A stretch of 64,000 bases of DNA. Source: Deltaproteobacteria bacterium. GTDB taxonomy: Bacteria; Desulfobacterota; Desulfobulbia; Desulfobulbales; Desulfurivibrionaceae. The notes beneath the pieces are model-generated. The model saw only the letters and a list, made by a program, of their open reading frames with translations. It made no database searches and was not told the DNA's origin. Of this stretch, positions 22,715-37,711 are shown one piece after another. How positions within the stretch are numbered: the stretch's first letter is position 1; every line of letters starts with the position of its first letter. The stretch lies in assembly GCA_013349285.1 (NCBI GenBank), contig DUZU01000007.1:1-64000 (forward strand), in the 5' to 3' direction. The translations under genes and the position numbers were made by a program.

Positions 22715-25273
22715 TCATAACACCTTCTTCTTGCTTTTCAGCCCGGCCTCAACCTGTTTGCCATCCTTGACCTCCAACGCTTGTTCGCCGATCAGTTTAT
22801 CCCCGTAAAAAAAACGGACCTTCCACGCCCCGAAAATATTCTTGGCCTTGGCCGGGATGGTATAAGCCTCCACCTGCCTGCGCATATACCGAACCATCTG
22901 CTTTGCGGTTCGCACCCTTTTACCGTCAGGGGCAAACCACTGGATCTCCACCGGAATCGCCTGACCGGCCGGCATGAAATTAACCGAATAAAGCACCCCG
23001 ATGGTCATCCCCGGTTTACCGGAAATATGGGCGGGATTGCCGACAAACATCTGGTGCCGCAACAGATTGGCCTCAATATCGCTGAGATTGTTAAAGGCGG
23101 AGGTCAACTCCGACAACTGGCGGAAGGAATAATTAACCAGACCGGCGCTTTCAATATCAAGGCTCCAAATTTTAACGTTTCGTTCGGAAATATTGCCGGG
23201 CGCCGCCGCAACCCCACTGTTTTGTTCTTCAACCAAACCGACACCGCTGTTGTTGCTCTGGGGCTCGGGCAGCTTAAACCCCTTGCTGGTATTAATATTT
23301 TTTGCCCGACCGAGGTTCTTGGCGTTCTGGAGGGTGACATTGGTCAGATTGCTGTTGCTGAGATTACTCCGATTAAGATCGCTGTCATTGAGATTGGCCC
23401 CGGTCAGATCGGCGTTGCTAAGGTTGGCGTCGGTCAGATCGGCCCACCGCAAATCAGCGCCTTGCAGGTTGGCGCCGCTCAAGTCGGCATTGGTCAGATC
23501 GGCGTTGCTCAAATCGACATTACTCAGATCGGCGTTGGCAAGCTTGGCATCGATAAGATTGGCGTTACGCAGATCAAAGCTGGTCATCTTGGCGTCGCTT
23601 AAAACCGTGGAACGCAGACTTTTCAGATTAAACTTTTTAGCGGCGGTCAGGTTGATGCCGGTGAGATTCGCCCCTTTTAGGTCGGCATTGCTCAGATCGG
23701 CATTGGTCAAATTGGCCCCGGTCAGATCCGCCTTGTTCAGATAGGTATGATTAAGATTGGCTTTGGTAAGATCAGCATTACGCAGCACCGCGTTATTCAG
23801 GTTGGCCCCGGTCAGATCGGCATTGTCAAGATCGGCCTTGCCCAGATTTATTCCGGTCAGATTGGCGTTTATCAGTTTTGCGTGGGAGCTAAGATCTGTT
23901 TCTTGCAAATTGGCCCCGGTCAGGTTGGCCTCGGTGAAATCGGCGCGGGCCAGGTCCGCCTGCATAAGATTGGCCTCGGTCAGATTGGCCTGGAGAAAAT
24001 TAACGCCGGAGAGATCGGCGCCAATCAGGCTGGCCTCGGTCAAGTTCGCCCCCCTCAGATCGGCCTCTTCCGCCTCAACCGCATCAAGGTTCGCCCCGTG
24101 CAGATTGGCCTGGGCCAGGATCGCTTTTTCCAGATCCGCGCCGGTCATAACCGCCTTGCTGAGATCAGCCTCGGCAAGGTTCGCCTCGGAAAGATCCACC
24201 CCCCTCAAATCGGCGCCATAGAGCAAGGCGCGGTTAAGGTTGGCTTTAAGCAGCCGCACTCCCTGCAGATTGACCCGGCTCAAATCAACCTGCACCAAAA
24301 TTGCTCCGGCCAAATCGGTTTTCTGCAGAAAGGTTGAGGTTAGGTTGGTCTGGGTCAGATTGGCCCGGCTCAAATCAGCGGAACTAAAATTGGTTTTCGT
24401 GAGAACGGCGTTGGAAAAATCCGCCTGGCCGGCATCGCAGCCCGAACAATCAGCCTCAAAAAGAATCGCCCGGGACAGAGTAGCCTGGACAAGGTTGGCT
24501 GAGCGCAGATTACTCTTGGAGAGATCGGCCTCGATCAAGTTGGCCTGGGACAAATCGGCTGAAGAAAGATCGGCCTTACTCAACTTGCATTCAAAAAGAA
24601 CGGCCCCGCGGAGATCTGCGCCGCTTAAATCGGCCTGAATCAAATTGGCCTGACTGAGATCAACCCCGCGCAGATCGGTGTCCCGCAGGTTCGCCCCCTC
24701 GAGATTGGCCTGATGAAAACTAATCCCCCGCAGGTCACTGCCCGCCAGATTGGCCTTGCGCAGATCCCGGCCGGCAAAGCTATGCTTGCTCTTAATCTGC
24801 TGCGGCAGAGCCCCATAACCCTTTTTTTCCTTAACCGCGATATTACCCGGAAGCCCCGGTGCGGGAATAGAGACCACTGAGAGTCGCGGGCCCGGAATCA
24901 GCCGCCCATACTTCCCATAAGAATACCAGCCGCCGACAAACAACAGCGCCGCAACCACCATGGATGAAACAATCACCCCGGGTCGACTGAAAAAAAGGCG
25001 CAGACGCCCTTTGGCAACAACCTTGCAGATGGCGGTATTCTCGGAATTACAACGGGGGCAAGGAACCTTTTTCCCGACAAAGATGGCCGGAACCATCTTT
25101 TTAAAACTGCACTTTTTACACTTGAAAACCGCCTGCTCGCCATTGGCTGCACGGGAAACAGGCACCTCACCGATATGAACCGGATGTTTGCACCGGGGAC
25201 AAGGCGCGGTTTTGCCGGCATGACGCGGCTGCACCTTGGTGGAATAACCGCATTTTTCACACTTAAAAAGCAT
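22715..25273 (-). CDS. Membrane-anchored giant pentapeptide-repeat protein with two N-terminal zinc ribbons
   Basis: CEKC...CPRC and CKKC...CPRC ribbons; TM IVSSMVVAALLFVGGWYSYG; long A(D/N)LXX tract; non-repeat C-terminal domain of about 150 aa. Confidence 0.92.
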   Translation of the reverse strand: MLFKCEKCGYSTKVQPRHAGKTAPCPRCKHPVHIGEVPVSRAANGEQAVFKCKKCSFKKMVPAIFVGKKVPCPRCNSENTAICKVVAKGRLRLFFSRPGVIVSSMVVAALLFVGGWYSYGKYGRLIPGPRLSVVSIPAPGLPGNIAVKEKKGYGALPQQIKSKHSFAGRDLRKANLAGSDLRGISFHQANLEGANLRDTDLRGVDLSQANLIQADLSGADLRGAVLFECKLSKADLSSADLSQANLIEADLSKSNLRSANLVQATLSRAILFEADCSGCDAGQADFSNAVLTKTNFSSADLSRANLTQTNLTSTFLQKTDLAGAILVQVDLSRVNLQGVRLLKANLNRALLYGADLRGVDLSEANLAEADLSKAVMTGADLEKAILAQANLHGANLDAVEAEEADLRGANLTEASLIGADLSGVNFLQANLTEANLMQADLARADFTEANLTGANLQETDLSSHAKLINANLTGINLGKADLDNADLTGANLNNAVLRNADLTKANLNHTYLNKADLTGANLTNADLSNADLKGANLTGINLTAAKKFNLKSLRSTVLSDAKMTSFDLRNANLIDAKLANADLSNVDLSNADLTNADLSGANLQGADLRWADLTDANLSNADLTGANLNDSDLNRSNLSNSNLTNVTLQNAKNLGRAKNINTSKGFKLPEPQSNNSGVGLVEEQNSGVAAAPGNISERNVKIWSLDIESAGLVNYSFRQLSELTSAFNNLSDIEANLLRHQMFVGNPAHISGKPGMTIGVLYSVNFMPAGQAIPVEIQWFAPDGKRVRTAKQMVRYMRRQVEAYTIPAKAKNIFGAWKVRFFYGDKLIGEQALEVKDGKQVEAGLKSKKKVL
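23315..24778 (-). repeat. Pentapeptide (15-nt period) coding repeat tract
   Basis: Near-continuous A(D/N)LXX translation over about 490 residues, roughly 95-100 pentapeptides. Confidence 0.9.
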
Positions 25274-34560: not shown

Positions 34561-35019
34561 CTATTTATACTGCAAGGGCAGTCCGGCCTTTTTCCAAGCG
34601 GAAATGCCGCCGCTGAGATTGTAGATTTCCGGATACCCTTTGCGGTAGTAATATTGACCGATCCCATAACTGCGACCGCCGACGGCACAGACCAGCAACA
34701 TGGGCTGCCCGGTGGGCAAACTCGCCCTGCCCTTGGCCAGATCACTCATCGGAATCAGCCGGGAGCCTTCAATATAACCCTCCCGCAACTCATCCGGTTC
34801 CCGGACATCAATGAGCAACAGATCTTGGCGATTACCGAGCATAAACTGCGCCTCCTGGGGGGTCACCGACCGAAAAACCGAAGCCGCCGAAGAGGTTTTC
34901 GCTACCGCCGTGCCCGGCTCCGATCCGGCCTGGGATTCAGGCTTATCGCCGGAACATGAAACAACCATGGCCAAGAGCAGAATCATTGTCCAAAATATTT
35001 TAAAATACCCTTTCATCAC
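34561..35019 (-). CDS. Rhodanese-domain lipoprotein
   Basis: Lipobox-like LLAMVVSC; LLIDVREPDELREGYIEGS; active-site loop CAVGGRS. Confidence 0.88.
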   Translation of the reverse strand: MMKGYFKIFWTMILLLAMVVSCSGDKPESQAGSEPGTAVAKTSSAASVFRSVTPQEAQFMLGNRQDLLLIDVREPDELREGYIEGSRLIPMSDLAKGRASLPTGQPMLLVCAVGGRSYGIGQYYYRKGYPEIYNLSGGISAWKKAGLPLQYK

Positions 35020-35347
35020 CTTTTCCCCTATCTAATTTCGATCAAAACACCCAACCAGGCGGGCAGAGATAATAACCTTAGCAAGTAAATCATCGGCCAA
35101 AAACAACCGTGATATTTATAAGCACAACCATCCGATTTTGCAACGACTTCCACAAAAAAAACACCTCGCGGCCCAGGCCACCACCATGATCAACCAACTG
35201 CTTTATCGTAACTTTCAACAACAACCCCCTCTATTTTTCAATTTCTTACAAAAACAAGTTGAAAACATTTAATCATTTTATTAAATTACTATATTTAAGA
35301 ACTTAATTATATTCTTATATGCGCTCTTTATTTTTGCGAGGAAACCA

Positions 35348-36508
35348 ATGATCAAAAAAATATTCACCCTCTTTTGCCTGCTTCTATTGACCGGAGCCCT
35401 GGCTGAACCTGCCCGGGCCGGCCTGACCACGGAGCTACAGACCCTGGTCAGCCAAGGCGCCATCTTAAAAAATGAGTTATCAGACATTGCCGTTGGCCAA
35501 GGCAATACCTGTAGCCAACTGGGGAGCCTGAACAGCTCGTTCGCAACTTACCTGACCGCGGTTGAGCTTATCACCAGTCAACTTTCCGCTCCGTTATCCA
35601 TCAGCCTCGATGACCTCGCCGCCCTGGACGATCTCTCCTCTTTGACCTATTTCATGTCGGCGGATAGCACCAGAATATCATGGGAACTAAGGGGGATCGA
35701 AGATAGCGCCGAGTTATTCGAATACCGGGCCGCTCTCAGCGCCATGCTTACCTTATCCAAGGATATCGGCACCATGGCCAACCGCATTCTGGAAATGGCG
35801 GATCGGATCCTGGTCATGACCGACAATATCGGCGCCATGGCGGATCGCATCCTGATCACTCAGCAGTTGCAGAACAGCAACATCGCCCTCACCCAGAATT
35901 CGCTTGGGGCAACCCAGCAGAACATGGTCATCCTGAGCGACAGTATTTCTTCGATTGCTTACAACTTAAGCCTGGGCCTTATCCAGGACGACACCAATGC
36001 CCTGGTTGATGAAATGGGCATCACTACCCTTACCAGTGACAACATGGCAAGTGAACTGGATCGACTGGCCGCACTCTCCAGCCTTCTGTTGGCAAACACC
36101 GTTAACCTTTACACCTGGATGAGCACGCAAAGCAGCCACGCCAGCCATTACATCAACGGCGACACCCTCACCGCCCTGGGAGATCTCTCCGCCATCAACC
36201 TGACCTTGGCCCAATCCCTGGAGCTATATGCCGACACCATCAACCAGTTGAGTCCCCTGACCCAAACCGCCGTCTTGGCCGAGGCCACGGCCGGCATGCT
36301 GCAATTAACCGCCGATATCGGACAGATGGCAAACAGGATCATGGAGATGGCCGACAAAATAATCATTATGGCCGACAACATCGGGCTGATGGCAGATAAT
36401 ATTGTCGCCACCCAGGAACTCCAGCAGACCAATATCGAGCTAACTGAAAGTTCACTGCTCACTGCCCAAAACACTACCATTTCCGTGATCAAAAACATGG
36501 GGCTCTAG
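35348..36508 (+). CDS. Exported heptad-motif protein, paralogue A (unknown function)
   Basis: Signal peptide MIKKIFTLFCLLLLTGALAEPARA; two copies of DIGxMANRIxEMADxIxxMxDNIGxMADxI; SD GAGG before ATG. Confidence 0.85.
   Translation: MIKKIFTLFCLLLLTGALAEPARAGLTTELQTLVSQGAILKNELSDIAVGQGNTCSQLGSLNSSFATYLTAVELITSQLSAPLSISLDDLAALDDLSSLTYFMSADSTRISWELRGIEDSAELFEYRAALSAMLTLSKDIGTMANRILEMADRILVMTDNIGAMADRILITQQLQNSNIALTQNSLGATQQNMVILSDSISSIAYNLSLGLIQDDTNALVDEMGITTLTSDNMASELDRLAALSSLLLANTVNLYTWMSTQSSHASHYINGDTLTALGDLSAINLTLAQSLELYADTINQLSPLTQTAVLAEATAGMLQLTADIGQMANRIMEMADKIIIMADNIGLMADNIVATQELQQTNIELTESSLLTAQNTTISVIKNMGL
35744..35935 (+). repeat. Heptad motif copy 1 of paralogue A
   Basis: MLTLSKDIGTMANRILEMADRILVMTDNIGAMADRILITQQLQNSN. 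Confidence 0.85.
36296..36505 (+). repeat. Heptad motif copy 2 of paralogue A, C-terminal
   Basis: MLQLTADIGQMANRIMEMADKIIIMADNIGLMADNIVATQELQQTN; starts 70 residues before the C-terminus. Confidence 0.85.
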
Positions 36509-36538
36509 GATCAAGAGCTTAGCTTGAGGAAAAATAAA

Positions 36539-37711
36539 ATGACCTTGTTTATTCGCAACCTGTTAATCCCGACCCTTGGCCTGCTGGCCGCCCTTACCCT
36601 GCAACCGACAACTGCCGCGGCCGCCATCCTGGACGAGTTGCGAGGACTCGTCAGCCAGGCAAACAATCTCGACAGCCAACTAAAAACAATATCGCTGAGC
36701 ACCGACAGCATCTGCGCCCCCCTGGTGGCGGCCAACCAACAAGCGCGAGAAATGATCGACAGCATCAACCTGGTTGATCAAAGCCTTGCCGCCCCGATCC
36801 AGATCGATGATGAAATGATGACCGCCTTTGACGAGCTTTTTTACGCAAGCGCCAGCCTGGCCAATGAAGAGGTAAGACTGTCCGGCGACCTGACGGCCCT
36901 TTCTTCGACAACCAATGCCATCACCTTAAAGGATGGCATTGTCGCCATGCTCCAACTTTCCGAGGATATCGGCACCATGGCCGACCGAATCGGCGAAATG
37001 GCGGACAAGATCCTGATCATGTCCGACAACATCGGCAGCATGGCGGACCGCATCCTGCTCACCCAGGAAATTCAGAACCAGAATATCCTCATCAGCCAAC
37101 AGTCCATCCTCCAGACCCAGACCAACATTCTCAGCCTGGTCGCGGTGGTGGAGAGCAGCAGCAATGACCTCGACCTCAATACGCTCATTGCCCAAGGAGA
37201 AACTTTGGCCGCCCAGATGGCGGCGGTTATCCTCAACCCTTTCACCATGGCAACCCAGCTGCGCAATGTGGCCGAGGATGTGAACACCTTTCTCGCCGAA
37301 ATCAAGACCACCAGTGACGTCATTAATCAACAGGCAACGACCGGCACCATGACGATCAATGCGACAACCCTGACCAGCCTTGCCAATCTGTCCATCATGC
37401 TCACCTCGCTCGGCACGGCAATGGATGGCTATGTCCTGGCCATTGAAGGACTGCAGGCCATGACCTCCAGCCGGACCCTGGAAGACGCCCTGGGCAGCAT
37501 GCTGCAACTTTCCGCCGATATCGGGGTGATGGCCAACCGTATTCTGGAAATGGCGGACCTGATTCTCGAGATGGCCGACAACATCGGGATGATGGCCGAC
37601 CAGATCATTGCCACCCAGGAGCTGCAGAGTGTTAATGTGGCTGCCACCCAGGCCTCGATTTTAGCGGCCCAGGATCTGGCAATTTCTTTGATTGCGGCAA
37701 GAAATCTGTAA
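36539..37711 (+). CDS. Exported heptad-motif protein, paralogue B (unknown function)
   Basis: Signal peptide MTLFIRNLLIPTLGLLAALTLQPTTAAAA; two motif copies; ATG 36539 with GAGGA SD (ORF-track TTG at 36524). Confidence 0.85.
   Translation: MTLFIRNLLIPTLGLLAALTLQPTTAAAAILDELRGLVSQANNLDSQLKTISLSTDSICAPLVAANQQAREMIDSINLVDQSLAAPIQIDDEMMTAFDELFYASASLANEEVRLSGDLTALSSTTNAITLKDGIVAMLQLSEDIGTMADRIGEMADKILIMSDNIGSMADRILLTQEIQNQNILISQQSILQTQTNILSLVAVVESSSNDLDLNTLIAQGETLAAQMAAVILNPFTMATQLRNVAEDVNTFLAEIKTTSDVINQQATTGTMTINATTLTSLANLSIMLTSLGTAMDGYVLAIEGLQAMTSSRTLEDALGSMLQLSADIGVMANRILEMADLILEMADNIGMMADQIIATQELQSVNVAATQASILAAQDLAISLIAARNL
36947..37138 (+). repeat. Heptad motif copy 1 of paralogue B
   Basis: MLQLSEDIGTMADRIGEMADKILIMSDNIGSMADRILLTQEIQNQN. 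Confidence 0.85.
37499..37708 (+). repeat. Heptad motif copy 2 of paralogue B, C-terminal
   Basis: MLQLSADIGVMANRILEMADLILEMADNIGMMADQIIATQELQSVN; also 70 residues from the C-terminus. Confidence 0.85.

Follow-up and report, generated by a model that had tools for sequence, protein, structure and literature searches.

Two adjacent genes for predicted exported proteins, in each of which the same strict seven-residue pattern recurs in two separate places, raise the question of what such a repeat is for and to which protein family, if any, it belongs. They lie in the window (the whole stretch of DNA analysed, 64,000 nucleotides) and are called A and B below.

Genes and export signals

The original prediction had described two neighbouring paralogues of 386 and about 390 aa, each with a signal peptide and with two copies of a heptad block. 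All of this was found again at the locus: both reading frames are on the plus strand, separated by a gap of 30 bases; signal peptides of the SPase I type were recognised by inspection; and four blocks are present, starting at residues 139 and 323 of A and at residues 143 and 327 of B.

35348..36508 (stop included), plus strand: gene A, predicted exported two-unit protein, 386 aa (open reading frame; orthologues in 11 genomes; dN/dS < 0.3)
36539..37711 (stop included), plus strand: gene B, predicted exported two-unit paralogue of A, 390 aa (open reading frame)
35336..35342, plus strand: Shine-Dalgarno-like GCGAGGA of gene A (read in the sequence)
36526..36529, plus strand: Shine-Dalgarno-like GAGG of gene B, inside the gap between A and B (read in the sequence)
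35348..35419, plus strand: signal peptide of A, residues 1-24, ending ...EPARA before G, putative SPase I site (sequence inspection)
36539..36622, plus strand: signal peptide of B, residues 1-28, ending ...TTAAA before A, putative SPase I site (sequence inspection)

Gene B most likely starts with the ATG at 36539, which gives 390 aa and has the GAGG 9 bases upstream; the TTG at 36524 is less likely, since it would absorb the Shine-Dalgarno sequence into the gene. The two proteins share 37–38% identity, are acidic (net -26 and -27 for A and B, respectively) and are rich in Leu, Ala, Ser, Thr and Ile. Read by eye, both signal peptides consist of Lys/Arg, a hydrophobic stretch and A-x-A, and signal peptides were predicted by inspection in all A and B proteins as well as in all complete single-unit relatives (see below). 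No further transmembrane or hydrophobic span was detected in A or B, and a search for the lipobox [LVI][ASTVI][GAS]C found no cysteine at the cleavage site of either protein, which therefore do not qualify as bacterial lipoproteins. Judged from these features, A and B should be exported proteins, either periplasmic or released.

A single cysteine is left in each mature protein:

35510..35512, plus strand: codon of Cys55 of A, the sole cysteine of mature A (unique in the mature part in 11/11 A proteins)
36713..36715, plus strand: codon of Cys59 of B, aligned with Cys55, the sole cysteine of protein B (unique in the mature part in 11/11 B proteins)

In all 22 A and B proteins it aligns to one position of the first unit, where the single-unit proteins have no cysteine. 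An unpaired, conserved cysteine in an exported protein suggests that an intermolecular disulfide may be formed, e.g., between A and B.

The heptad block

35762..35866, plus strand: heptad block 1 of A, DIGTMANRILEMADRILVMTDNIGAMADRILITQQ
36314..36418, plus strand: heptad block 2 of A, DIGQMANRIMEMADKIIIMADNIGLMADNIVATQE
36965..37069, plus strand: heptad block 1 of B, DIGTMADRIGEMADKILIMSDNIGSMADRILLTQE; also detected as a 21-base tandem repeat
37517..37621, plus strand: heptad block 2 of B, DIGVMANRILEMADLILEMADNIGMMADQIIATQE

Each block comprises five heptads. The copies within one protein had been placed about 180 residues apart; a regular spacing is indeed kept, and the figure can be corrected to exactly 184 residues in all 22 A and B proteins from 11 genomes. 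The second copy had also been said to start exactly 70 residues before the C-terminus, which is right when the count begins at the ML-x-LS ahead of DIG, but not from DIG itself, where the distance is 64 residues in the pair and 63–65 across all homologues, the single-unit ones included.

Within a block, 12–14 of 28 comparisons at a lag of seven residues are identities, versus 2.1–2.5 expected from shuffling, and for each of the four blocks this score was reached in none of 20,000 shuffles. A two-class test for hydrophobicity periodicity on the same blocks was not significant (P 0.13–0.5); the signal is therefore one of residue identity at lag 7. The proposed heptad register is real, as is also seen from short relatives, which differ by whole 7-residue deletions. 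Identity between the blocks at third codon positions is 0.46–0.78 where the residues are identical; the blocks have thus diverged at synonymous sites and are not a recent DNA repeat.

Among the 11 orthologues, mean pairwise identity is 0.84 in the blocks versus 0.58–0.62 outside, and the dN/dS of the blocks was 0.017–0.144 in ten comparisons, nine of them below 0.09. The block is therefore the most constrained element, as had been proposed, and the homologues keep it. The proposal that the sequence between the blocks is much less conserved holds only in part: it is less conserved than the block, but a dN/dS of 0.11–0.26 outside the blocks means that the whole protein is under purifying selection.

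Across 45 distinct blocks, the Asp before I-G, a Glu, two Met, N-I-G, an Ile and two Gln never change. The polar residues D, E, N, T, Q and Q are kept in 44–45 of the 45 (D, E, N, Q and Q in every one), positions f and g are conserved in addition to a, d and e, and in the middle heptad Gly at b and Asn at g are invariant. Methionine at position d is practically never replaced by Leu or Ile in these blocks; in the 14 aligned proteins it is invariant at 4/4 positions of the N block and at 3/4 of the C block, far above the conservation of methionines elsewhere in the same proteins. Since the polar residues are invariant too, the block is more than an Ile/Met core stripe.

Domain unit and duplications

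The block had been likened to a coiled coil, with much less conserved sequence between the copies. This picture is incomplete: the block does not stand free between linkers that lack conservation, but is part of a helical domain of about 180 residues which also exists singly. Judged from the sequences, the domain is about 180–184 residues long and the block is its C-terminal part, not the unit itself; A and B each contain two such units.

35420..35962, plus strand: unit A-N, modelled as a five-helix bundle (model; tree clade AN, support 99/98)
35963..36505, plus strand: unit A-C (homologous to A-N and B-N outside the block; tree clade AC, 100/99)
36623..37168, plus strand: unit B-N (homology outside the block; tree clade BN, 100/98)
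37169..37708, plus strand: unit B-C (homology outside the block; tree clade BC, 100/97)

A profile of the pair found exported relatives with a single unit in 10 genomes of the same order; they have 213–238 aa and one block, at 63–64 residues from the C-terminus. When the block was cut out, N and C units still matched each other (hhalign E 3e-7), as did single-unit proteins (S) with N units (E 4e-11) and with C units (E 3e-19), values which may be inflated by the helical composition. A maximum-likelihood tree contained five clades (AN, AC, BN, BC and S), each supported at 98/95 or better, in which A-N grouped beside B-N and A-C beside B-C. The unit clades and the homology outside the block indicate that a single-domain exported protein was first duplicated internally and that this gene later gave rise to A and B by a second duplication; support for this order, with the internal duplication as the older one, comes from the tree.

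Structure model and known families

A model of one unit, built on eight unit sequences (from the window and one further locus, L028), was an all-helical bundle of five helices with a pLDDT of 82.3 and a pTM of 0.78; the other four versions had pLDDT values from 75 to 50. In this model the block takes in the last part of helix 4 and the first part of helix 5; the helix is broken at T-D-N, just before the invariant N-I-G. A model of full-length A from a 4-row alignment reached only a pLDDT of 49 and had one long helix through each block. Of the predicted coiled coil with a methionine stripe, the heptads are retained, but the best unit model (pLDDT 82) interrupts the helix within the block.

When the unit model was compared with solved structures by Foldseek, the top three matches were 6zpp, 5j5l and 5j5k, with E values from 4.5e-3 to 2.2e-2. 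The first (E 4.5e-3, probability 1.00) had TM scores of 0.56/0.63; 5j5l and 5j5k, which are AFMP4P with arachidonic or palmitic acid, had TM scores of 0.51–0.53. No match was found at E <= 0.001, and generic helical bundles followed close behind. A search of a viral fold library with the unit model gave a best E of only 0.037. The top three are of the HsbA/Mp1p type. HsbA recruits enzymes to hydrophobic surfaces (PMC6859710). Mp1p is secreted, binds palmitic acid and has two tandem homologous lipid-binding domains which arose by duplication, besides 13 single-domain homologues (PMC4999278); g7941 was described as a 5-helix bundle (PMC10462633). As modelled, the unit would be a five-helix bundle of a size similar to that of the exported domains of this type (TM 0.51–0.56), and the occurrence of single-domain and, by duplication, of tandem two-domain versions is a pattern seen in the A/B family as well. 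However, HsbA/Mp1p-type proteins are fungal and do not match the invariant heptad block, whereas the A/B family belongs to one bacterial order and lacks a PF12296 sequence match: neither A nor B was matched at E <= 10 when the genome was searched with HsbA PF12296, and profile searches of the PDB had no HsbA chain among their matches. The model weakly suggests a striking likeness of fold, which falls short of significance by E value and is not family membership.

That no named domain would be recognised was confirmed, since nothing in Pfam, NCBIfam (best E 0.023) or PHROG (no match) was above the cut-off. In 10/14 members, about 46 residues of the block weakly resemble the profile of DUF7162 (PF23721; best E 1e-5); the scores of 23.5 and 18.0 bits, or 15.9 and 14.3 bits in a genome-wide search, are below the curated cut-off of 27 bits. 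Against the whole genome the E value was 0.03, and the profile also matches weakly in unrelated control genomes. Membership in DUF7162 was therefore rejected as sub-threshold and probably generic heptad similarity; a sub-threshold match to CesT_Tir_1 was likewise rejected and taken as heptad similarity. No literature on DUF7162 or on the heptad motif was found. In profile searches of the PDB, E values below 0.001 were obtained only with designed antiparallel coiled coils and helical bundles (8qae, 8a3k, 9no8). These share heptad-patterned helical hairpins and bundles with A and B, but they are artificial, and the similarity is compositional and lies mostly before or outside the block.

Distribution and genomic context

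The A–B pair is present in 11 genomes, and B is always directly downstream of A (11/11). Full-length members of the family were found in 20 genomes out of 263; these 263 make up the sample of the order and of the class alike. Samples of 396 genomes of the phylum yielded matches from the same order alone and none in about 380 others; the scan of other phyla used a single-protein query, which reaches close relatives only (one locus, L028). Plasmid and phage collections contained no copies of the family. In the genomes covered so far, the family was seen in one bacterial order. Two further matches were not accepted as members, one inside an MlaD-like protein (G045) and a weak one with an E of 0.009 and 26% identity (G055).

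The genome carries dsrA and is therefore that of a dissimilatory sulfur metaboliser, probably of the Desulfobulbales. Two genes, named here from a reading of their sequences, flank the pair, which stands alone. Downstream of it is a rhomboid-like gene, which runs towards it; on the other side is

34561..35019, minus strand: rhodanese-like gene with a signal sequence, divergent from and adjoining A (also adjacent in three genomes of a sister genus)

This adjacency probably reflects a neighbourhood by descent rather than a partnership. In three genomes of one genus (L022, L023, L024), A and B are located between a cysteine-desulfurase-like (csd) and a rhodanese-like gene; in 12 sibling genomes (among loci L127-L140) the csd-like and rhodanese-like genes are 22–197 bases apart, without A and B. 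Occupied and empty versions of one site thus exist within a genus, and the pair is therefore accessory. Its loss from the site is at least as likely as an insertion, because the adjacency of rhodanese and A is common to the window's own genus. Inspection of the neighbours of homologues across families revealed no conserved gene partner. Of the "exported or envelope system" that had been suggested, undescribed exported proteins therefore remain, but nothing points to a whole system. No mobile-element genes were seen adjacent to the pair, and the 22 A and B genes contain no frameshifts.

Two side observations concern single loci. G047:C38 (L026, about 600-806) contains what is left of a B-type C-terminal unit, degraded and interrupted by stops, in a genome which also has an intact A–B pair. 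Between G018 and G023 (L023, L024), identity is 94% for the A and B proteins and only 85% for the neighbouring csd-like proteins, a contrast hinting at local gene exchange.

Short block-bearing proteins

A block that is shorter or otherwise altered was also found in other contexts, in a few short proteins:

L074, 9401-10000: short block protein, followed by a segment read as Ig-like (no Pfam match)
L070, 8823-9581: short block protein, followed by a segment read as Ig-like (no Pfam match)
L075, 7102-7497: short block protein
L071, 8884-9762: block-like segment, 293 aa, no signal peptide, MADRI/MATQI heptads, Cys-rich end
G074:C214: fifth short block protein

In the alignment, two of these proteins are shorter in the block by exactly one heptad. 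A full-length member is also present in 4/5 genomes with a short block protein, versus 20/263 overall (hypergeometric P 1e-4). This co-occurrence fits docking of block to block; it also fits a local birth of the short proteins from family genes in the same genomes.

Possible function of the pair

Of the possible roles, one in the structure or at the surface of the cell envelope appears most likely. The reading which we prefer, with a probability of roughly 40%, is that the block assembles A and B into an exported heteromeric complex or scaffold that can be linked by disulfides. An older single-domain exported protein became, by internal duplication, a tandem of two predicted helical bundles of about 180 residues, and duplication of the two-unit gene led to an obligate A–B pair. 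The block could be the main packing surface between domains, whether within a chain, between A and B, or with single-domain or short block proteins; the outcome would be a heteromeric exported scaffold or complex, with A and B chains possibly joined via their single cysteines. Assembly is favoured because all four units share the block with single-unit proteins and even with short proteins that look unrelated, because conservation includes f and g besides a, d and e, more than a buried core by itself would require, and because the short relatives change by whole heptads. Several points speak against it. The short proteins could owe their co-occurrence to birth from family genes, and the one at L071 8884-9762, without a signal peptide, could not meet exported partners; the conserved polar residues might just as well belong to a binding site for a ligand or cofactor; the lack of a neighbour conserved across families leaves no tie to envelope assembly; and the full-length model of A is poor. 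A bolder version, in which the pair polymerises as an A–B helical scaffold in or outside the envelope, founds an undescribed order-specific family and has in the block a universal docking module in common with single-domain and short block-bearing proteins, seems improbable to us.

The leading rival, next after assembly, although doubtful in itself, is that the unit is a five-helix domain for binding hydrophobic ligands (fatty acids or lipids) like HsbA/Mp1p; A and B would then be exported tandem two-pocket carriers or surface-adsorbing proteins, with the flexible side chains of methionines lining the pocket. That all three best solved-structure matches are of this type, and that single and tandem domains occur as in Mp1p (PMC4999278), agrees with it; but no E value reached 0.001, generic bundles were close behind, the model came from eight sequences with pLDDT values of 82 to 50 in its five versions, PF12296 and the PDB profile searches gave nothing, and a ligand pocket alone leaves the invariant polar residues unexplained. 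We hold it unlikely that the block forms a long, unbroken coiled coil with a methionine stripe, through which rod-like A and B would dimerise or trimerise. The perfect I-xx-M-xxx-I heptads, the variation in length by whole heptads, the long helix per block in the low-confidence full-length model and the designed coiled coils as best PDB profile matches would be expected from such a rod; the best unit model breaks the helix at T-D-N, however, the middle heptad has invariant residues of the kind typically seen at a cap or kink (Gly at b, Asn at g), and the designed proteins match mostly the region before the block. It is very unlikely that a ladder of Met and Asp binds a metal or cofactor, e.g., Cu(I), and that A and B serve as exported metal or redox proteins: the near-invariant d-position methionines, practically never Leu or Ile, would suit this, but the block has neither His nor Cys, its methionines recur every seven residues on one face instead of in MxxM/MxM clusters, and metal-related neighbour genes are absent. 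Least credible is a decaying or selfish coding sequence without cellular function, i.e., a lineage-specific accessory pair kept by chance. The patchy occurrence (of 15 siblings, 3 have the pair at the csd-rhodanese site and 12 lack it) and the degraded copy at G047:C38 could be taken in its favour; strong purifying selection on A as well as B (dN/dS mostly 0.02-0.26) makes it unlikely, and intact frames in 22 genes and the lack of adjacent mobile-element genes also speak against it.

At present, A and B represent a well-delimited orphan family with putative roles only. Should the preferred reading, assembly through the block, be right, this would be an undescribed exported protein family with a clear path from one domain to two domains to two genes, and its block motif would be stricter than in most coiled coils; if the match to the fungal lipid-binding fold held, an unexpected bacterial counterpart would have been found. 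The pair is a concrete target for structure determination and pull-down.

Another gene of the window

A pentapeptide-repeat protein of 852 aa is encoded at 22715-25273 on the minus strand; its N-terminal region resembles a zinc ribbon, with CxxC, one of its segments is hydrophobic, and its gene causes the 15-base tandem repeats at 23477-23991.
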